Below are positions 23,217 to 32,611 of a stretch of DNA of 32,611 nucleotides, piece after piece; positions within the stretch are counted from its first letter, which is position 1, and every line of letters begins with the position of its first letter. A model generated the notes under the pieces. That model saw nothing but the letters and a program-made list of their open reading frames with translations, had not been told where the DNA came from and did not search any database. The position numbers were made by a program, and so were the translations under genes. Source of the stretch: an uncultured Elusimicrobiales bacterium (GTDB taxonomy: Bacteria; Elusimicrobiota; Elusimicrobia; Elusimicrobiales; Elusimicrobiaceae); the NCBI GenBank assembly GCA_944324685.1, contig CALUXG010000003.1, forward strand, positions 1 through 32,611. Direction: 5' to 3'.

Positions 23217-23291
23217 CGGGGAATGGCTCAGTGGTAGAGTGCTCGCTTGGGGTGCGAGAGATCGCGGGTTCGATTCCCGCTTCCCCGACCA
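23217..23291 (+). tRNA. tRNA-Pro(GGG)
   Basis: Acceptor arms are 23217-23223 and 23281-23287, the anticodon loop is 23247-23253 with GGG at 23249-23251, the discriminator is A23288 and CCA is encoded. Its 3' end plus flank (CCCCGACCATTTAG, 23283-23296) is identical to that of the next tRNA. Confidence 0.95.
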
Positions 23292-23300
23292 TTTAGTTTA

Positions 23301-24917
23301 TTATACGGGGCGTAGCGCAGCTGGTAGCGCGCACGGTTCGGGACCGTGAGGTCGTGGGTTCAAATCCCGCCGCCCCGACCATTTAGATGATTCAAGCCCT
23401 TCCAGCATTAACTGGAAGGGTTTTTTCATTATAATTTCAAGCTTTTCCTCACTTAACAGACAGTTCGAATAAATACAGCGTAACAATGCATTCTTTTGTA
23501 TTGTATTCGAACCAGCATACAGATCTGCCGCTTGTGAGGCCAGTCTCAACAGCCGTTGTACAGTCCATGTAACCATTTCATGTTGGGAATCCTGATGAAC
23601 TAGCTTGGCTTTGATTTCTGCTTCTTCTGTTTTTAACTTGGCCAGTTCTGCACTCACAAATAATGTATCCAATTCCCCGCTGCTTTCCCGAGAAATCAAT
23701 ACAGATCGTGTCCTATTAATCTGCCCTAAACGCTGTTTTAGGTTTCTTTCTGTAGCATGTAAAGCTTCTGTTTCTTGTGCATCATCTTTATTCAAATTAT
23801 TTATTACATGTGAAAGGAGGCGAGGATCTATCTTTAATTTACGTAATGATGCAACAACCTCTTGTTCTGCCAGCATTTCATTGACCTGTTTTGCCTTGCA
23901 GCCACGTTTATTAATAACACCACTGCAGCGCAAATAATGATATGTATGAATATCTCCTGTACTTTTGATCTTCTTCTGCTTTTCATAACTGGTAATAACC
24001 GCCCCACAATATTTGCAACGCAATAACCCCCGAAAAACAAAAGGTTTTGTGCAATAATCAAAAGGATGGCTGGAAAGTCCTTTCCGAACGCGCTCACAGC
24101 GTTTAAAAAGTTCTTCGCTGACAATTGGCTCATATTTGTGTGGAAATAAATGCCCTTGAATATGCATCTGCCCATAGTAAAAGGGGTTTTCTAATATTCT
24201 GTGCACACTTGAAACAGAAAATGGTGTTTTATGGATGCTTTTCACTCCGGCATTCTGAAAATCACGTGCAGCTACTTTCAATGGATAATTGCCTGTTGCA
24301 TACTTCATAAAAAATTTACGCACAATGGGAGCAGTCTCCGGATCCTGTATAATGGTCTTCCTCCCATCAATTACGACATTTTTATAACCAACAGGAGCCT
24401 TGAAGGGATATTCTCCCTCTTTGATCTTTTGAGAGAACCCACGCAATACATTTTCCCTTAATTGATCCACATATGATTTAGCACCCATGACACCAAAGTC
24501 ATACATCATTCGTTCTGAACTGTGTGAATACTGATTAATAATCATGTTATTTGCAATAAAGTGAAGTTCAAACTTACCAGAAAGCAATAAAGGTTCAAAC
24601 TCCAAACTTTCCTTAAAACTACGTTGGAAACGATCCAATGTATCAGCTACAATTGCCAAAGGATGCGGACTATTTTTAACGTATTCCATCATTTTATGAA
24701 AAAACTTGCGATTGCCTTTGGTGGAAGATTCTGTAAACGAAAAGGTCTCTTCTACAATCATCTGCTTTCGCATACAGTATTCCTTGGCACTTGCTTCTTG
24801 GGCAGCCAAAGACTTTCCTTCCCGCTGTTCGGATGAAGATACCCTTGCCAAAATAATAGCATGTGTTGGAGTAATATATCGTGGATTTAATATCCTGTTT
24901 AATAATGCATTGGGCAT
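23301..24917 (-). CDS. Large serine recombinase, C-terminus replaced by host tRNA sequence
   Basis: 538 residues as integrated. The resolvase domain starts at about residue 20 with ARVSSSEQ (catalytic Ser about 27), followed by the recombinase domain (VGYKNVVIDGRKTIIQDPET, in part), a zinc ribbon (CKYCG then RCSG and GCKAKQV) and a coiled coil. It cuts and joins att sites for integration and excision. The ATG at 24917 has AGGAGA well placed; a start at 24971 adds 18 residues without a better site. The last 24 residues after Lys-Trp-Ser are read antisense through tRNA-Pro. The native tail appears to be at 32332-32484, giving 564 residues in the circular form. Confidence 0.9.
   Translation of the reverse strand: MPNALLNRILNPRYITPTHAIILARVSSSEQREGKSLAAQEASAKEYCMRKQMIVEETFSFTESSTKGNRKFFHKMMEYVKNSPHPLAIVADTLDRFQRSFKESLEFEPLLLSGKFELHFIANNMIINQYSHSSERMMYDFGVMGAKSYVDQLRENVLRGFSQKIKEGEYPFKAPVGYKNVVIDGRKTIIQDPETAPIVRKFFMKYATGNYPLKVAARDFQNAGVKSIHKTPFSVSSVHRILENPFYYGQMHIQGHLFPHKYEPIVSEELFKRCERVRKGLSSHPFDYCTKPFVFRGLLRCKYCGAVITSYEKQKKIKSTGDIHTYHYLRCSGVINKRGCKAKQVNEMLAEQEVVASLRKLKIDPRLLSHVINNLNKDDAQETEALHATERNLKQRLGQINRTRSVLISRESSGELDTLFVSAELAKLKTEEAEIKAKLVHQDSQHEMVTWTVQRLLRLASQAADLYAGSNTIQKNALLRCIYSNCLLSEEKLEIIMKKPFQLMLEGLESSKWSGRRDLNPRPHGPEPCALPAALRPV
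23306..23381 (+). tRNA. tRNA-Pro(CGG), integration target of the element
   Basis: Acceptor arms are CGGGGCG (23306-23312) and CGCCCCG (23371-23377). The anticodon stem is 23332-23336 with 23344-23348, and the anticodon CGG is at 23339-23341. CCA is encoded. The element begins at its 3' end, and the recombinase gene covers it antisense. The tRNA remains intact after integration because the att core supplies the same ACCA end. Confidence 0.95.
23376..23385. repeat. attL core of the element
   Basis: CGACCATTTA, overlapping the last 6 nt of tRNA-Pro(CGG). It is repeated exactly at 32485-32494. Confidence 0.75.
23397..23426 (+). terminator. Element-supplied terminator for tRNA-Pro, inside the recombinase gene
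   Basis: A perfect 9-bp stem (23397-23405 with 23412-23420, loop CATTAA) is followed by six T on the plus strand. It lies on the element side of attL, so it replaces the original tRNA terminator now stranded at 32494-32524. On the minus strand the same bases encode part of the recombinase C-terminal region. Confidence 0.8.
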
Positions 24918-25056
24918 TTGCGTTTCTCCTTGATTGGGGTTAGATATTGATTGCTTGTGGTTCTTAGACATATTCTTCTACTTGTATTCTACTTTTATTG
25001 TGCTTTATTGGTCAATAATGATCTTTTTTTACAAATTTATTTTGGTTTCTATAATA

Positions 25057-26352
25057 TTATTTAAGGCATCCGTCTAAATACATTGTTATATCTGTACGCT
25101 TGATCCTTAACGAGCGTTTACCAATTTTATATGCAGGAAGTTTATTTTTCTTAATAGCTTGATGCATTTGTTCTCTGCTTACATGTAGTTGATTCGCCAC
25201 TTCTTGAACAGTCAGCATAGATTCATATCGTTTAAACCATGCAGCAGATGTACGTTTTTTAAGCTTTCCCCACTTGGAAGGAATTAAACTAGTAAATATA
25301 CCCAGTGAATGATCTATAAACCTCCACACATCTAAACGCCAGGTAACTTGGGCCACGCGTCCAGTATTACGTTTAATAAAATCCGACGGATTGCTGAATC
25401 CAAGCCGCTTTAAACTTCGGACGGATTCCTGATAACCGGATCCACGCACTAGGTAGTTAGTACCCAATTTTGCTAATAAAGCTTGAGGTTTTAACTTTTT
25501 ACCGGCTCCGCGCGAAATCCGCCACAATTCAAATGCAGGGGCATATATATCCATTGGGACGCTCCGTATTGGGTCACTAACTTTATGCCAATAATCCAAC
25601 AGAACACGCCGTGCAAGTGCCTTCTGGAACACATCTCTAAAAGTAGCAAAACGGATCAAATTATTATACGGATAAAGTAACTTTTGCCATGATTTACGTT
25701 TATGAAAACGAATCTCTATCCGTAATATGTTGATCTTCTGTGTTTCAATATCAGTCTTAAGCTGTTGAGGTAGGATGCAATGAGGCTGTTTGATCTCCTT
25801 CTGTAGTTCTTTCGTTTTATCATAAAACACCAATTCATAGCCTTTGGAATAAAAAACCACTTTCTCCCCACCATTTTGGTACACTACATGTTGAATATCC
25901 ATATAATGCTGAAGTGGTTGTGCTCGACTCAATTCCGATAATACAAATGGCACAGGAATACGCCCCAATAAGATGTTTTTCCCATATTCAAAGCCACGAA
26001 CATCAGCATATCTAGAGACTTGCCCAGGCGTAACTCGAACACCCATTTGAAACAAAATATCCGACAATTTCCAACAACACGCTTGGAAATCTATATTCCT
26101 CAATTCCATCAAATTATTGCCATATATCAATTTTGGCAGAGAGACTTTGACTACTAACAAAGTGGTCAATTGCTTGGGATACGTAGCAATATACTGGCGC
26201 AGTTCCACATGTGGATAATATATGCTGTGTGACTTATAATTATACACATGCTGGTGTGTACCCAACTGATTGATATTGCCGTCAAATAGTGCGGGAGCAT
26301 AGATCTGATATGTTTTGGGATCCCAAAAGTACAAAGTTACCACATCAATCAT
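25057..26352 (-). CDS. Rolling-circle-type replication initiator (phage X/G2P-like) with C-terminal HTH
   Basis: 431 residues. The start MIDVVTLYFWD, the segment ELVFYDKTKELQKE in the middle and NILRIEIRFHKR are typical of the phage X family/gene II-type replication proteins, which nick the double-strand origin. The last 60 residues (LTVQEVANQLHVSREQMHQAIKKN, in part) form an excisionase-type HTH, an unusual fusion that may target the origin. The ATG at 26352 has GGAGG 6 nt upstream and overlaps the previous small gene by 8 nt; an upstream start at 26397 is less likely. Family assignment rests on motifs only. Confidence 0.6.
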   Translation of the reverse strand: MIDVVTLYFWDPKTYQIYAPALFDGNINQLGTHQHVYNYKSHSIYYPHVELRQYIATYPKQLTTLLVVKVSLPKLIYGNNLMELRNIDFQACCWKLSDILFQMGVRVTPGQVSRYADVRGFEYGKNILLGRIPVPFVLSELSRAQPLQHYMDIQHVVYQNGGEKVVFYSKGYELVFYDKTKELQKEIKQPHCILPQQLKTDIETQKINILRIEIRFHKRKSWQKLLYPYNNLIRFATFRDVFQKALARRVLLDYWHKVSDPIRSVPMDIYAPAFELWRISRGAGKKLKPQALLAKLGTNYLVRGSGYQESVRSLKRLGFSNPSDFIKRNTGRVAQVTWRLDVWRFIDHSLGIFTSLIPSKWGKLKKRTSAAWFKRYESMLTVQEVANQLHVSREQMHQAIKKNKLPAYKIGKRSLRIKRTDITMYLDGCLK

Positions 26353-26542
26353 GGCAATCCTCCAACTTTTGGGAATGTGCTTCCTGATCCAAATCACCTA
26401 ACAGCTTAAAAAATTCTGTTAATGAAAACAGAGCATCTGCTGCTTCTTGTTCCGTAATAGGATACCCGTAAACTGCTTCCAGGGTTTCCTTAAAAGAAAG
26501 CTTTTGATGGCCGCCTTGGGCTCGTTTTATATTCTGTATCAT
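26345..26542 (-). CDS. Small hypothetical protein upstream of rep
   Basis: 65 residues, hydrophilic and mostly helical (KLSFKETLEAVYGYPITEQE, then ALFSLTEFFKLLGDLDQEAH). I do not recognise the family. It overlaps the rep start by 8 nt, so the two are likely cotranslated. The position before a Rep gene suggests a copy-control or accessory role, which is a guess. The ATG at 26542 is used; an in-frame TTG at 26587 would add 15 residues. No strong ribosome site is seen for either. Confidence 0.55.
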   Translation of the reverse strand: MIQNIKRAQGGHQKLSFKETLEAVYGYPITEQEAADALFSLTEFFKLLGDLDQEAHSQKLEDCHD

Positions 26543-26661
26543 GCCCACAGACTGCAAATAACAATAACATAGATTCAGAGCCACCAAAATTTGCTTTTAT
26601 ATCGATAAAAAACATAGAAGACACATAGAAAAGAATGATTTAAAGGCAGAAATGTGCCAAG

Positions 26662-26693
26662 AAAAACGGGATCCTCCTGGAGGAGAATCCCGT
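26662..26693 (-). terminator. Terminator of the 27850-26716 transcript
   Basis: A 12-bp stem with one mismatch (26666-26677 with 26682-26693, 4-nt loop) is followed on the minus strand by TTTTC. It separates the 26716 gene from the rep unit. Confidence 0.75.
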
Positions 26694-26715
26694 CAGAAAT
26701 ACATTTTGATAACAC

Positions 26716-27669
26716 TTATTTTAGATCTTTCCACACAACATTCTTTTCAGTCAGCCCTAGCTGTTGAGGAAACCCCAACTGCCTCAAATGGGTGTTTGCT
26801 GATTCCCGCAAAATACTTTCCAATGCTTTTTTCCCATCTGAATCCTTTGCTTTTTTTTGGATCTTCAACATCTTAACAGCTTGGCTCCAGGGAAACCTAA
26901 CTTTATGCTGCATCATATGCAAAAGAAGCTGAACCCATTTACTGTTCATATTATGAACCTTGTATTCTTTTGCCCCATATACAAATTTACCAGAAGCAGC
27001 AAAAAACTGCAGCTTTCGATATTGACAATCTGGTTCAGGAGGTAGCAAGGCTTCTTCCATCTCCGATACTGACATCTTTAACTGAACTTCTACTTCTGGT
27101 ACACAACACGGAGAAGAAATCATAAACAAATCTGGAGTCTTTAGTTCCAGCATACCCCTTTGATGTAAATAAACCAAATCTGAGTAAAAACGAACATCTT
27201 TAGGGTGTGGGGGCAAACCATCTAAGCCGAATTTGCTCCCCTTGTCATTTTCTGCTTGTTGTAAAAAGTCAAGAGTAGCACGCAAGCTCTTCTCAAATGT
27301 TTTATAATGCTGCACAGGCAGAGAATCTTCTCGATAAGCTTGTAAATACAGGTCTAACAAATTCTGTTCTTCCCCTTCATCCACATAGATAAAACAAACA
27401 TTCTCAGGGGCATCTTCTTCCAAAACATCGGTTGCATAATATACGTGAAAGACAGGCATGTTATTTAAATCTTCTGGTAATACAGGAAGGCATAACGATG
27501 GCACCCGTCTTGGATATTGTACAAGATCAAACAGTACCAATGCGATCCAATCAGGTAGCTTGGCTGTTTCAAACGTCAAAAACTGCGGAACAAGAGGGAT
27601 AAAAAGGCCTTTATTATTTGACGGTTTTACAGTTGTTAAGGAAGGTTTTAAAGTCTTTTTCTTGGACAC
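26716..27669 (-). CDS. Hypothetical protein of the element (317 residues)
   Basis: A soluble protein with no signal or membrane segment, rich in acidic and proline residues in the middle (VDEGEEQNLLDLYLQAY, LLPPEPDCQYRK). The C-terminal 90 residues look helical and basic (NSKWVQLLLHMMQHKVRF, WSQAVKMLKIQKKAK) and could be a DNA-binding or replication-related domain. I do not recognise the family. The start is a GTG at 27669 that overlaps the HTH gene by 56 nt; no ATG occurs for the first 65 codons. It is cotranscribed with the HTH gene and ends at a terminator. Confidence 0.6.
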   Translation of the reverse strand: MSKKKTLKPSLTTVKPSNNKGLFIPLVPQFLTFETAKLPDWIALVLFDLVQYPRRVPSLCLPVLPEDLNNMPVFHVYYATDVLEEDAPENVCFIYVDEGEEQNLLDLYLQAYREDSLPVQHYKTFEKSLRATLDFLQQAENDKGSKFGLDGLPPHPKDVRFYSDLVYLHQRGMLELKTPDLFMISSPCCVPEVEVQLKMSVSEMEEALLPPEPDCQYRKLQFFAASGKFVYGAKEYKVHNMNSKWVQLLLHMMQHKVRFPWSQAVKMLKIQKKAKDSDGKKALESILRESANTHLRQLGFPQQLGLTEKNVVWKDLK

Positions 27670-27850
27670 GATAATCTTTCCCCAGTTTATAAGCGATCAA
27701 CTTTTTGCTGCGAATATAGCGATAAATGGTCAAAGGCTCAACCCGAAGCATGTCAGCAATTTCAGACACAGTTAAAAAAGCCCCAGATTGCCCTTTTGCG
27801 GGTTTTTTCTGAGTTTTAGGTGTTTGGATGCCTTTCTTAATGCTTTTCAT
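27614..27850 (-). CDS. Excisionase-type HTH protein
   Basis: 78 residues. After a basic N-terminus of 25 residues comes a compact excisionase/MerR-like HTH (FLTVSEIADMLRVEPLTIYR, then YKLGKDYRVQEKDFKTFL). It resembles the HTH tail of the Rep protein at 25057-26352. Proteins of this kind bend DNA at att sites to direct excision, or regulate element genes. The ATG at 27850 has AAAGG only 1 nt upstream. It is divergent from the nuclease-helicase gene, so it could also control that promoter. Confidence 0.75.
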   Translation of the reverse strand: MKSIKKGIQTPKTQKKPAKGQSGAFLTVSEIADMLRVEPLTIYRYIRSKKLIAYKLGKDYRVQEKDFKTFLNNCKTVK

Positions 27851-27981
27851 GCCTTTAGTGTACTATATTTACCAAATTACTGCACAAAATATAAACTAAC
27901 AGTTGATTTGTAAAAAAAGCATGCAGAAATCAAAAGAATCGACAAATAAAAATGTTAAAATGGACTTAATAATAACAGCCT

Positions 27982-29958
27982 ATGCGAAATTTAAGATCAT
28001 ATTATTCAGGGAATTTGGAAGATTTTCTGCATCAGTCAACAACAGAAATTCTGGGGATTATTCATGCCAATAATACAACTACGGACACTACTATTCAACA
28101 AAGCAATACTTGGGAACAAGAAATATCTATTTTAAAGGACCAGCTGGCCATATTTCAAGAAGGCCGTTTACTATTTGAATATACTATTCCACGAATGGGT
28201 AAGCGGATTGATGTAGTGTTTTTACATCAGAACATCGTATTTTTATTGGAATTTAAATGTGGCGCACATTTACATTACTCTACAGCCTACGACCAAGTAT
28301 ACGATTATGCTCTTGATTTACATAATTTCCACAAAGAAAGCCATGATAAGCTCTTGGTGCCGATTGCTATTTCCACATCAGCTCCTGTGGTTGAAAATAA
28401 GTTTGTTAACGATGATCACATCATTACACCACTATATTGCAATGCGCATAATATTACTCAAATTATCCAAAAGGTTGCAGATACTTACCATGAACAGCCT
28501 TTTGATTACGTGAAGTGGGAAGTATCAGAATATTTACCAACACCTACCATAATTGAAGCAGCACAAGCGCTATATAGAGGACATAATGTCCACGATATCA
28601 CCCGCAGTGACGCCGGAGCAACAAATTTAACATTAACAACTTCAGAGCTCAATCGGATTATTGAATACAGCAAACAAAAACACCGAAAATCTATTTGTTT
28701 TGTTACAGGGGTTCCAGGTGCAGGAAAAACTTTAGTAGGTTTAAATGTAGCTATTGACAGATCAGACGCCAAGCAAGGAGAGCATGCCGTTTTTCTATCG
28801 GGGAATTTTCCTTTAGTACAAGTATTACAAGAAGCATTAGCTCGTGATAAAGTAGAGCAGGAAAAACAACGCGGAAAACGTATTTCCAAGAAAGAAGCTT
28901 TACGTAGCACTGCAGCTTTTATCCAGATTATTCATAAATATAGGGATTCTTTTGTTGGGAACGACCAAATTCCCCCTGAAAGAATTGCCATTTTTGATGA
29001 AGCCCAACGCTCTTGGACAAAAGAGATGCTAGTTAAATTTATGGGCACAAAAAAGGGAATACACTCTTTCCAATATAGTGAACCTGAATTTTTGATCAGC
29101 ACTATGGATCGGCATCATGACTGGGCTGTCATTATCTGTCTTGTTGGTGGCGGCCAAGAAATTAATACTGGGGAAGCAGGTCTTCCCGAATGGTTTGATG
29201 CATTAAGACGCTCATTTAAGGATTGGGATATATATATTACACCTCAATTAAATGACGAAGAATACCGCAGAGAAAGAGCTTGGACTGATTTAGTACATGG
29301 TTTAAATGTCACTGAAAAGCCAGAGCTGCATTTAAATACATCTGTCAGATCATTCCGTACGCCTTATTTGGCTGCCTTTGTAAAAGCATTACTTGATGTA
29401 AATAGCGAGCAAGCACAAGCCCGCTATGAGCAGATTAAAACAAAATATCCTGTAGTAATTACCCGCCAATTAGATAAAGCGAAGAAATGGGTCCGAATGC
29501 AAGCCAAAGGGACCAATAAATACGGGATATTGGCCAGCAGTGGCGCCTTACGGCTCAAACCAGAAGGGATTTTTGTTAAAAATGAAATATCTGTAGCGAA
29601 TTGGTTTCTTAATGCTAAAGACGATGTTCGGTCCTGTTATGCATTAGAAGATGTAGTAACAGAATTTGATGTTCAAGGATTAGAAGTCGATTACTCTATT
29701 GTAGCATGGGATGCGGATTTCCGATTCGCTGACGGCGAATGGACATATAATAACTTTACTGGTACACGTTGGAATCATGTTGCAAGTCCGGAAAAGCGAC
29801 TTTACCTCAAAAATGCTTATCGTGTCCTGCTAACAAGAGCACGACAAGGAATGGTCATCTTCGTTCCTCGTGGCACTACAGAAGATCTGACCAGACACCC
29901 ATCATTTTACGATCACACGTTCAATTATCTGAAATCGCTGGGATTAAAAGAAATATAA
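27982..29958 (+). CDS. PD-(D/E)xK nuclease fused to DUF2075 superfamily 1 helicase
   Basis: 658 residues. The N-terminal 130 residues hold a PD-(D/E)xK-type site: FEYTIP, then RIDVVF, then LLEFKCG (Asp...Glu-x-Lys). After a linker, the DUF2075 helicase has Walker A VTGVPGAGKTLVGLN (about residue 240), Walker B IAIFDEAQRSW, NTSVRSFRTPYLAAF, TEFDVQGLEVDYSIV and motif VI RVLLTRARQGMVIFVP. The plan resembles single-protein nuclease-helicase immunity systems, so anti-phage defence is likely though inferred. The ATG at 27982 has no ribosome site. It is convergent with the ATPase gene and is the only large plus-strand gene of the element. Confidence 0.85.
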   Translation: MRNLRSYYSGNLEDFLHQSTTEILGIIHANNTTTDTTIQQSNTWEQEISILKDQLAIFQEGRLLFEYTIPRMGKRIDVVFLHQNIVFLLEFKCGAHLHYSTAYDQVYDYALDLHNFHKESHDKLLVPIAISTSAPVVENKFVNDDHIITPLYCNAHNITQIIQKVADTYHEQPFDYVKWEVSEYLPTPTIIEAAQALYRGHNVHDITRSDAGATNLTLTTSELNRIIEYSKQKHRKSICFVTGVPGAGKTLVGLNVAIDRSDAKQGEHAVFLSGNFPLVQVLQEALARDKVEQEKQRGKRISKKEALRSTAAFIQIIHKYRDSFVGNDQIPPERIAIFDEAQRSWTKEMLVKFMGTKKGIHSFQYSEPEFLISTMDRHHDWAVIICLVGGGQEINTGEAGLPEWFDALRRSFKDWDIYITPQLNDEEYRRERAWTDLVHGLNVTEKPELHLNTSVRSFRTPYLAAFVKALLDVNSEQAQARYEQIKTKYPVVITRQLDKAKKWVRMQAKGTNKYGILASSGALRLKPEGIFVKNEISVANWFLNAKDDVRSCYALEDVVTEFDVQGLEVDYSIVAWDADFRFADGEWTYNNFTGTRWNHVASPEKRLYLKNAYRVLLTRARQGMVIFVPRGTTEDLTRHPSFYDHTFNYLKSLGLKEI

Positions 29959-29995
29959 TACCGAGTAAGATGTTTCATGCAACTGCCTCACTTAA

Positions 29996-31465
29996 TCATA
30001 TAAAGATATCAACAGGGTGCTTGGGAGGTGAGGCCTTAAGTTGGGATAAAATATTTCTAATTTGTTGTATTGCTGTAGCTAATTGCTCAACCGAATACTG
30101 CTCATTATGTTTATTTTCCGGATGATGGATAAAATTCCTAATATATGTACATAAAGAACACTGCATATCTCGTGGCTTTCCTGAACGCATAGAAGTCCAC
30201 TTCTGATCTTTAGGAATTTGATAATTGTGGCACAAAATTTTATCAAAATCGGGAAGCTCCTTACAGTTCAGCCGTTCAAATAACCATCCATACAGCTCAT
30301 TAAAATATTCTTCGCTTGGTATATCAAAAGCCAAATAGTTGATTTCATCGGCGGAAGTATAAGGTAAAACTATTTCTTTAACGTTGTTACATTGAATATT
30401 TCCTTGGGCCTTTTTTAATACTTTAGCATTAACTGGGCAATACCTAAAAAGCTGCTTTAATAACAATGGGGAATGCGTTGTAAGAATAATCTGGGCTCTT
30501 TTAGAAAGCTCTAAAATTATTTTAACGAACTGCTCCTGTAACTTCGGGTGTAAATGCAACTCTGGCTCATCAATAAGTACAACTATTTCTTTATTAGTTG
30601 CTTGGATAGCAGACAAGGAATACAATAGAGAGAAAATCATCTCAAATCCACTCCCCATTTTATTAAGGGGCAAATGAATTCCCTTGTCTGTAACATGAGC
30701 TAAAAATGCTTTATCAAATGGACAAAATGGATCTATAATTTTTAAACTGACTGAAATATCTGTTGCCTTATGAAATCTTTGAATGCTATTTATCAGTATG
30801 TTACTGTTTAGATCGCTTTTAAGTTGCTCAAACTCATTATCAATACCCACTGTTGATTTTTCTTGTTGCAATACTTGTCTATTCAAGTCTTCCATAATGC
30901 GATCAAATTTTGTGTCATTAAACATTCCTGTCTTAATAGCATAAGGCCTATTTTTTTCAATGTAAGAAAGATTAATTTCTGAGAAGCGATTTCCTCTCCA
31001 AGGGTTTCGCACTGATACCCTTAGGTCGACTGAATCATTATCAGGTTTATCCCCCTCTCTGGCCTTAATAACAAGCAAATCATGGACGACACTAGAAGCT
31101 AGATAAGCAGTATTTTTACTCCGTACATGAGCTTCAAATAGGAATCCCTTTCCTTTATAACAACTGCGGGGCATTACACCTTGATAGGCAAACTCTTTTT
31201 CTGCAAATGCTTTAACAATCAAAGGTTGTGTCGGATCATTAAAATCAGCAATTTCAATTGAATCCCCCCTATATTCTGTTAAGCATAGTGCAATCGCATC
31301 CAATATTGAGGTTTTTCCTGTTCCATTATTGCCCAGAAATACATTTAATCCAGATCCTGCTTGTCCATTGGGAATCTTAAAACCATCTAATATAAAAGGT
31401 TGATCTTCGGTAGCAGAAAAAACACGAAAATTTCTTATTTCTAATTCTCTAATAAACATATTCAT
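29996..31465 (-). CDS. ABC-type AAA ATPase (AAA_15/21-like) with C-terminal HEPN-like motif
   Basis: 489 residues. Walker A FLGNNGTGKTSILDAI is at residues 44-58, a degenerate signature is in LNKMGSGFEMIFSL, Walker B is VVLIDEPELHLHP and the switch His is in LTTHSPLLL. This is the overlapping-ABC ATPase plan of many defence systems (OLD, Septu PtuA, AbiL-like). There is no TOPRIM domain. The C-terminal 70 residues carry CSLCTYIRNFIHHPEN, where R443-N-x-x-H-H fits the Rx4H pattern of HEPN RNases, but a Cys-pair metal site is an alternative. The ATG at 31465 lacks a ribosome site. It faces the nuclease-helicase gene tail to tail, 37 nt apart. Confidence 0.8.
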   Translation of the reverse strand: MNMFIRELEIRNFRVFSATEDQPFILDGFKIPNGQAGSGLNVFLGNNGTGKTSILDAIALCLTEYRGDSIEIADFNDPTQPLIVKAFAEKEFAYQGVMPRSCYKGKGFLFEAHVRSKNTAYLASSVVHDLLVIKAREGDKPDNDSVDLRVSVRNPWRGNRFSEINLSYIEKNRPYAIKTGMFNDTKFDRIMEDLNRQVLQQEKSTVGIDNEFEQLKSDLNSNILINSIQRFHKATDISVSLKIIDPFCPFDKAFLAHVTDKGIHLPLNKMGSGFEMIFSLLYSLSAIQATNKEIVVLIDEPELHLHPKLQEQFVKIILELSKRAQIILTTHSPLLLKQLFRYCPVNAKVLKKAQGNIQCNNVKEIVLPYTSADEINYLAFDIPSEEYFNELYGWLFERLNCKELPDFDKILCHNYQIPKDQKWTSMRSGKPRDMQCSLCTYIRNFIHHPENKHNEQYSVEQLATAIQQIRNILSQLKASPPKHPVDIFI

Positions 31466-31606
31466 CCAGTAGTATTGATAAGTGTAAAATATTAACTAAT
31501 ATATATTATAAATAGTTTAGCATTAAAAATATACCTTTCCACTAATCTTTATTCTTTGCGTTTAAATTGAACAGTCTGTATTATAAAACAAAAGTATAGC
31601 TTTTAT

Positions 31607-31689
31607 TGTGGCAGATGGCCTCCGCATGCTTCGCATGCTACGGCACGGGACACGTTCGCTCTGTTAGCTCACAGCCCTCATCTGCCACA
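31607..31689. other. GC-rich multi-arm inverted repeat (candidate replication origin or structured RNA)
   Basis: A perfect 11-bp outer stem (31607-31617 with 31679-31689) encloses a second hairpin of two GCATGC boxes (31624-31629 with 31633-31638) and a small CTGT/ACAG stem near 31660-31674. It stands out in AT-rich noncoding DNA. The 13-mer TCATCTGCCACAG of its right arm recurs at 32435-32447. With a rolling-circle Rep gene on the element, an origin is the leading idea; a small RNA is the other. Confidence 0.5.
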
Positions 31690-31709
31690 GAGGGATTTGT
31701 CCTATTAGG

Positions 31710-32138
31710 TTACTTATGAAACAAAACAAAGTGGGGTAATTGCAACAGTTTTGTATAGCGAAACATCTCGTAGTTAGCACGCCTTGCTGTAGGACTCAAT
31801 CTGTAGTGAGTTAAATGTTTACTTGGGACAAATGGGAAGAATAAGATAGATTGTTTAGGGGTATTTTGTTCCTTCCATTTAAAATTTACAATCAATGGTG
31901 GAGGTAAAAATCCTGCTTTTAACACTTTAGACATGATCTGCCATCCAGCCCCAAACACTTCGCTTTTCGGTTTACAATTATTTGTTTTTATTTGTGCACG
32001 AAAGGAACATGCAGTACATTGTACGTCATATAAAGGATAATTGGGAGGCAACAATATCAATTTTTTTCCCCAATTTGGGCACGCAACTAATTCTACAATC
32101 TCCTCTTATCCCAATGTACCTGTTTGTTTATTGGACAT
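31710..32138 (-). pseudogene. Decayed DpnI-like (PF06044-type) restriction protein
   Basis: The frame from ATG 32138 (good AGGAGGG upstream) reads 10 codons, meets TAA at 32108-32106, and then continues in frame for 131 codons as a convincing DpnI-family protein. The zinc ribbon begins ACPNWGKK, where the second Cys of CPxC is Trp, then PLYDVQCTAC and the nuclease strand FRAQIKTNN (Asp...Gln-x-Lys), and finally LSPTARRANYEMF, close to the PTARRAGW segment of DpnI. DpnI itself cuts methylated GATC. Two independent lesions argue for decay rather than sequencing error, though reinitiation at a non-ATG codon cannot be excluded. Confidence 0.75.
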
Positions 32139-32331
32139 GTTTCCCTCCTCTCTTTAGCACAATAAAAGCATTGCCTCTTTCCTTATCTTAACATATCCAT
32201 AACCAAATTCCCCTGCATTTTCAAACATTTAACACACCTGTCCGTTTGCATAAACCATCGGTTGCATGGTATTTTCTACCAACTAAGGTAGATTTTGGAA
32301 AACAACTTGGCGAATTATGGCAACCGGACCC

Positions 32332-32484
32332 TCATTTATGATCATTACACGATTCGGCAAAGGAATAATATGGGTTTAAATCTGTACGGTATTTATCATC
32401 CAAGTCTTCCAATATTGCCAACCATGCAGCCAGATCATCTGCCACAGCAAAGCGTAATTTGGTTCTATTACGGGAAACAACCTG
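32332..32484 (-). pseudogene. Detached native C-terminal tail of the serine recombinase
   Basis: Following the att core, read on the minus strand as Lys-Trp-Ser, are 50 codons (QVVSRNRTKL, then FAVADDLAAWLAILEDLDDK, ending SCNDHK) and a TGA at 32334-32332. It has no start codon or ribosome site of its own. The composition and helix pattern are protein-like. In the excised circle this frame would join exactly in phase to the recombinase at attL. In the integrated state it is presumably silent. Confidence 0.75.
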
Positions 32485-32494
32485 CGACCATTTA
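32485..32494. repeat. attR core of the element
   Basis: CGACCATTTA, identical to attL in the tRNA-Pro(CGG) 3' end. The terminator that probably once served the tRNA follows immediately. Confidence 0.75.
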
Positions 32495-32524
32495 AAAAGA
32501 CACCTTTTGCAAGGTGTCTTTTTT
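32494..32524 (+). terminator. Stranded original terminator of tRNA-Pro(CGG)
   Basis: A perfect 13-bp stem (32494-32506 with 32511-32523, loop TTGC) ends in six T. Its position directly beyond attR matches that of a tRNA terminator before the element inserted. Confidence 0.8.
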
Positions 32525-32611
32525 GTTGCCCTGTTAACTCATCAAAATCTTTTTCCCACATATAAACTTTTTCAAAAGTTTCTTCATATATCCTTCTTTC
32601 TGAAAACTTGA
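32525..32611 (-). other. Unresolved minus-strand coding-like end at the right edge
   Basis: One minus-strand frame entering from the edge is open and protein-like (KFSERRIYEETFEKVYMWEK, then DFDELTGQQ) until it runs into the hairpin and attR. A different frame has a short peptide (MKKLLKKFICGKKILMS) with an AAGGA site. The stretch is AT-rich, like the element rather than the chromosome. I cannot say which frame, if any, is real. Confidence 0.3.

Follow-up and report, generated by a model that had tools for sequence, protein, structure and literature searches.

The window analysed here is the whole of a 32,611-nucleotide stretch of DNA from an uncultured, Elusimicrobium-like gut bacterium of the Elusimicrobiales, and is the entire contig C3 of a 1.4 Mb assembly in 49 contigs. 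It carries a 9,109 bp element bounded by two copies of the 10 bp sequence CGACCATTTA, the first of which lies at the 3' end of a tRNA-Pro(CGG) gene. Its genes mark it as a 9.1 kb integrative element: they encode a G2P-type replication protein, a protein resembling excisionases, defence-like cargo, and a large serine recombinase (LSR) aimed at the CCA end of tRNA-Pro. The LSR gene lies against the left end of the element (attL), where its reading frame crosses the repeated core, and a further 50 codons in the same phase lie just inside the right end (attR). The features of the two ends are as follows.

23217..23291, plus strand: tRNA-Pro(GGG), the 3' end of which bears a third copy of the core
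23301..23375, minus strand: C-terminal tail of the recombinase when integrated, encoded by the host as 24 codons antisense to tRNA-Pro(CGG) and a TAA stop
23306..23381, plus strand: target tRNA-Pro(CGG), intact at attL after integration (ARAGORN)
23376..23385: attL core CGACCATTTA, consisting of the tRNA-Pro(CGG) discriminator base, the encoded CCA and TTTA; Lys-Trp-Ser on the minus strand
23386..24971, minus strand: constant part of the LSR, with Resolvase (PF00239), Recombinase (PF07508), Zn_ribbon_recom (PF13408) and a coiled coil (Pfam, AlphaFold2 (AF2), alignment)
23394..23423, plus strand: terminator-like hairpin and T-run for the tRNA, within the last recombinase codons (KPFQLMLEG)
32332..32484, minus strand: element-encoded tail, 50 codons and TGA, predicted to be joined to the recombinase only in the circle (homologues, codon analysis, helix prediction)
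32485..32494: attR core CGACCATTTA, with minus-strand codon phase identical to that at attL; supported by empty sites in relatives
32495..32525, plus strand: displaced host hairpin and T-run, originally after tRNA-Pro(CGG); identical in the empty sites of genomes G053 and G117 and unscored by a simple terminator scan

A recombinase gene read through the attachment core

The chance expectation for CGACCATTTA is 0.14 copies, and no shuffle contained the three that are present when the copy at 23286-23295 is counted. The 3' end of tRNA-Pro(GGG), which carries that copy, is a second potential attB adjoining the one that was used.

The three recombinase domains score over the Pfam cut-offs, and the AF2 model has long paired helices at residues 383-487. 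This model of the body, for which four sequences were used and whose confidence is moderate, ends just before the core, with strands at 504-515 followed by a short helix that reaches residue 524. No solved structure with a detectable sequence relationship to the LSR was found. The open reading frame (ORF; 23301-24971, minus strand) encodes 556 aa from the first ATG, or 538 aa from an internal ATG (M19), crossing the attL core as Lys-Trp-Ser and ending in GRRDLNPRPHGPEPCALPAALRPV, read from the antisense strand of the tRNA. Past Lys-Trp-Ser at attR, this phase leads into QVVSRNRTKL...CNDHK, 50 codons (32335-32484) that end at TGA 32334-32332. Joining the ends as a circle gives a recombinase of 582 aa from the first ATG, or 564 aa from M19. 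The initial annotation had described the shared codon phase of the two cores, the 24 antisense residues and the 50 codons, all of which are found here; its lengths of 538 and 564 aa hold from M19, but not from the first ATG. The integrated form, on the domain assignments, keeps the catalytic, zinc-ribbon and coiled-coil body whole.

The empty tRNA-Pro(CGG) site that had been predicted, in which 23385 would join 32495, is present exactly in two genomes of the same genus. In both G053 and G117 the tRNA gene is followed by CCATTTAAAAAGACACCTTTTGCAAGGTGTCTTTTTTGTTGCC, with a 36 bp flank that is 100% identical, and similar empty sites are present in many other relatives. In the relatives of genome G022, which has an element of this kind at tRNA-Glu, the tRNA-Glu is directly followed by the gene that flanks attR of G022, giving a matching empty site. 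The 10 bp core and the empty site would place integration at a short core shared by attP and attB, with catalysis predicted, and attB at the 3' end of a tRNA gene that is restored after integration (ARAGORN, empty sites).

The hairpin and T-run embedded in the recombinase gene are on the strand of the tRNA, 13 nt from its end. This predicted terminator replaces the host hairpin, which integration has pushed to attR. A gene-embedded terminator is not universal: 10 of 32 tRNA-adjacent LSRs have one, mainly in the subclade of the window, as against 46 of 640 control windows (7%). In a separate set of loci (L140-L152) the host tRNA-Leu terminators (GACCCTTTGAC...GTCAAAGGGTTTTTT) closely resemble the hairpin within the recombinase genes of tRNA-Leu elements, and this likeness suggests mimicry of the terminator that is replaced.

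The element-encoded tail

The 53-residue attR peptide, searched against 66 genomes of the same genus, gave four tail homologues outside the genome of the window; the match in G061 is insignificant (E 0.19). The homologous tails, 36-62% identical, are at attR of G071 (tRNA-Pro) and of G022 (tRNA-Glu), and a third is in G089, at the orphan end of an element. In G071 attR reads KWS|QLVVSKRT... and in G022 KIR|QSVFSKRT..., so that the codon phase after the core is the same in G022 despite its different core. Both tails lie at the far end of their elements, and the recombinases of these elements share 53% (G071) or 64% (G022) identity with that of the window. When 341 genomes of the phylum were searched with a profile of the four tails, neither a free-standing copy nor any further significant one was found. 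The homologues past the core that had been sought are therefore present, one of them in a different tRNA, and a free-standing gene matching the 50 codons, which would have counted against the initial annotation, was not found in those genomes. Its other proviso, that homologues might end in unrelated tails, does not apply at attL, where the tails differ as host tRNA sequence; conservation is on the attR side only. A zeta-toxin-like kinase ORF (MKTLFILAGANGSGKST...) follows the tail in G089:C23 (L087 2639-3468) and in G022 (L032 4667-5665).

Across 36 aligned codons in four elements, the 265 tail differences fall 87, 47 and 131 on the three codon positions, and the excess at third positions was reached by 0 of 10,000 column shuffles. 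The nonsynonymous rate (dN) is 0.17-0.54, while the synonymous rate (dS) is saturated or 2.2, a pattern of selection at the protein level. Tail residues W21, L25, D27 and L28 are invariant. A serine integrase needs roughly 25 bp on one side of the crossover. Conservation of the tail extends 20-120 bp beyond the core, past the reach of an attP half-site, and because it runs so far beyond 25 bp, constraint on the site does not explain the conserved columns. AF2, from two sequences only, models the tail as one helix (residues 2-34) with a predicted local distance difference test score of 88-97 over the first 30 residues. On this codon and homology evidence the 50 codons are a real coding sequence belonging to the recombinase.

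Related recombinases and the remaining genes

The arrangement is broad. In 31 of 39 related recombinases there is an antisense tRNA 7-202 bp past the conserved LSR C-terminus; the tRNAs past related LSRs are Pro, Glu, Leu, Asn, Gln, Ser, His, Asp and Tyr. The 31 include an Alphaproteobacteria metagenome-assembled genome, a Legionella adelaidensis plasmid, a Neochlamydia plasmid and two gut phage-like contigs. The window (Pro) and G022 (Glu) form a pair in the LSR tree, with G071 (Pro) next, which would mean that targets have switched while the layout was kept. The core Trp codon, TGG, is the antisense of the encoded CCA, and it recurs as IWG at tRNA-His and at several others. Searches by core and by terminator did not locate attR for the tRNA-Leu elements of G034 and G194.

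No matches came from viral contigs scanned with the window LSR, with its two-sequence alignment or with the tRNA-His LSR; two other scans gave one relative that ends at a contig edge (L116) and one weak match (L117), and a 12-sequence LSR alignment was too divergent for such a scan. In many related-family genomes contigs break just upstream of these recombinase genes (L018-L031), as would be expected if there were several near-identical copies per genome. Near a recombinase 3' end in G225:C36 (L045) a run of N is flanked on both sides by repeated recombinase C-terminal sequence; this assembly gap falls at a junction of the same type.

At tRNA-His, where the core is TATGGGGT, elements lie in tandem. 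In G057 a recombinase 41% identical to that of the window reads across the core into the tail of the next element, whose own recombinase stops within tRNA-His. One after the other, two recombinases of G049 run into SLLEYFYNFF... and ANQLPVPHFYPNPAKK..., and in G061 a third, distantly related recombinase carries the ANQLPVPHFYPNPAKK tail. These contiguous ORFs indicate that recombinase and element-tail proteins are encoded in real genomes, and that tails are exchangeable between LSRs. At the single-element sites in G251 and G115 the attR side has TVVNAFYNFLITR, or its TVVHAFYNFLITR variant, after the core, and on the attL side the frame meets a stop immediately within the tRNA. The G049 locus was considered as an unintegrated attP form and this was rejected, one element with a second in tandem fitting better (the element order up to tRNA-His is partly settled). 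The arrays are at L118 (G049:C7), L120 (G057:C1) and L034/L121 (G061:C1), and one G049 element has an HsdR-like restriction enzyme.

Between its ends the element of the window carries the following.

25057..26397, minus strand: replication protein with Phage_CRI/G2P N-terminus and C-terminal HTH_17 (Pfam)
26345..26587, minus strand: small ORF of a module common to related elements (counterparts in L035, L032)
26716..27669, minus strand: function-unassigned ORF with a counterpart in the G022 and G071 elements
27614..27850, minus strand: HTH_17 excisionase-like protein, candidate recombination directionality factor (Pfam; PHROGs excisionase matches)
27982..29958, plus strand: cargo, Schlafen group 3 helicase, candidate defence gene PDC-S41 (PADLOC match, E 9.5e-279)
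29996..31465, minus strand: cargo, AAA ATPase of OLD/PtuA/AriA type
31710..32060, minus strand: weak DpnI/Dam-replacing-like fragment (Pfam match just under the cut-off)

The cargo at 27982-31465, a Schlafen group 3 helicase and an OLD/PtuA/AriA-like ATPase, resembles defence genes.

Interpretation and known systems

The anatomy of the locus, the empty site, and the homology of the tail and selection on it are established from sequence; that the fused full-length protein is made, we infer. It is probable, in our assessment, that the attP core lies in frame within the 3' end of the recombinase gene, and that integration trades a selected helical tail, serving the circular form, for a host peptide. 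In the circle the element would encode the full-length 582 aa enzyme, ending in the 50-residue tail for which a single long helix is predicted. Integration at the CCA end of the tRNA would cut the gene at the core, leaving the tRNA unharmed and with a terminator now supplied by the last codons of the recombinase. The integrated gene would then encode a shorter enzyme with a 24-residue antisense-tRNA peptide, and the tail would be left at the far end, silent because it has no start. It would be restored by excision, in which the HTH_17 protein presumably acts as directionality factor.

That selection acts on the tail suggests that it matters in the circular state. It most likely serves the circle, where it may raise attP x attB activity or adjust directionality or turnover, and integration would thereby weaken its own enzyme. 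Because the tail sits just after the zinc-ribbon and coiled-coil region, an effect on integration or directionality is the leading guess; control of directionality is plausible, and we put the chance of an integration-promoting or directionality role, rather than another such as stability, at about even.

Several observations weigh against this interpretation. The contig stops 117 bp beyond attR, and no circular, unintegrated copy or circular contig of the element was found in the viral-contig scans. The tail family is limited to four elements, with unrelated or shorter tails in other subclades, so that this tail is not a universal requirement. The G071 recombinase is split into two frames, and no recombinase end was detected for the G089 tail. 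In G071:C2 (L035 9240-10857) this split recombinase is probably inactivated, with the attR tail still intact.

It could be that site and gene have co-evolved passively at the tRNA end, the tail being non-regulatory, of use for solubility or frame only and lost without effect. Related LSRs that end a few codons into the tRNA at host stops, and presumably still work, would fit this, as would tails that are mutually unrelated between subclades; the strong protein-level constraint over 36 codons in four elements is not expected of a dispensable extension, and we consider passive overlap a serious but rather unlikely explanation. Were the 50 codons instead a separate small gene, started from an internal GTG or TTG in either state, their being open and conserved in the integrated state would be accounted for, and in-frame GTG and TTG codons do exist. 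There is, however, no in-frame ATG, and conservation starts upstream of those codons (Q.V..xRT). For two different tRNAs the phase past the core agrees with that of the recombinase, no promoter-like site was found near attR nor a free-standing copy in the 341 genomes, and at tRNA-His LSR and tail form one ORF, all of which makes a separate gene improbable. The nearness of the contig end, and a core of just 10 bp, might raise the suspicion that repeats and tail are due to chance or to faulty assembly. The exact empty site in G053 and G117, and the independent occurrence of the arrangement in G071 and in G022, the element of the latter also being on ONAM01000028.1 (uncultured Elusimicrobium sp. 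RUG129), leave either of these hardly credible.

The trading of a selected tail for a host peptide has partial precedents. In streptococcal rumA-targeting integrative and conjugative elements (ICEs) with a single serine integrase, the att site is within the integrase gene and integration changes the C-terminus (PMC4701971); IME_Spy2096_SNF2 is also listed with rumA-type serine elements (PMC5357655). These share with the window element the serine integrase, an att site in the gene, an excised form of different length and short direct repeats (2-21 bp). They differ in that a protein gene is the target and is altered, with a reading-frame change reported for both proteins, whereas in the window the tRNA stays whole, no change of phase occurs, and what is lost is a tail that is conserved and under selection. 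In the Myxococcus phage Mx8, attP is in the integrase gene and integration replaces 112 C-terminal residues by 13, giving a less active integrated form (PMC4701971, PMC4383910). The likeness is again in attP position and C-terminal replacement, but the enzyme is a tyrosine recombinase with no sequence relationship. As in both systems, the window recombinase is read through the core, with a C-terminus predicted to differ between the free and integrated states.

The initial annotation had compared the element with SSV-type 'suicidal' archaeal integrases, which are tyrosine enzymes whose gene is fragmented, excision needing an intact copy (PMC8371274). An attP in the integrase gene, tRNA targets and a gene split on integration are indeed shared; the enzyme of the window, however, is a serine recombinase with a complete catalytic and DNA-binding body when integrated, and the rumA-type ICEs and Mx8 are closer analogues.

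The 9 kb filamentous phages phiRSM of Ralstonia integrate by a serine recombinase at a tRNA end with 13 bp identity, and their Int is described as of resolvase/invertase type, with attP between int and the next gene (PMC3218068). Mycobacterial actinomycete integrative and conjugative elements (AICEs) integrate by a serine enzyme in tRNA-Leu (PMC4471427). Both resemble the window element in serine integration at a tRNA gene end, with no tail swap described there. No structural or Zot-like gene of a filamentous phage was found in the window element by Pfam or PHROGs, though a Phage_CRI replication protein is present, for which the phage collection gave no match.

A 2011 paper describes the use of tRNA genes by serine integrases as 'rare', citing phiRSM1 and the mycobacterial AICEs (PMC3218068), and one of 2014 gives it as not known (PMC4383910); on the former, tRNA targeting by serine integrases is not wholly unreported. 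No description of this LSR clade was found in the literature searched, subscription papers being outside its coverage. A swap of the integrase C-terminus on integration is thus already known from a few elements, and what is new is a wider clade of tRNA-targeting serine integrases built in this way. A broader proposal, which we hold only tentatively, is that a widespread and little-recognised clade has attP spanning its own 3' end, that loss of the helix is a built-in switch of directionality or activity, and that tandem elements lend tails which may re-activate or re-tune a neighbouring integrase.

Serine integrases are used as one-way DNA switches, and the way in which natural ones are prevented from reversing matters both for biology and for tool-making. 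An enzyme that would lose a conserved C-terminal helix by its own integration offers a direct two-protein test of integration-coupled control, and the clade supplies many serine integrases with tRNA 3' ends as their predicted attB.

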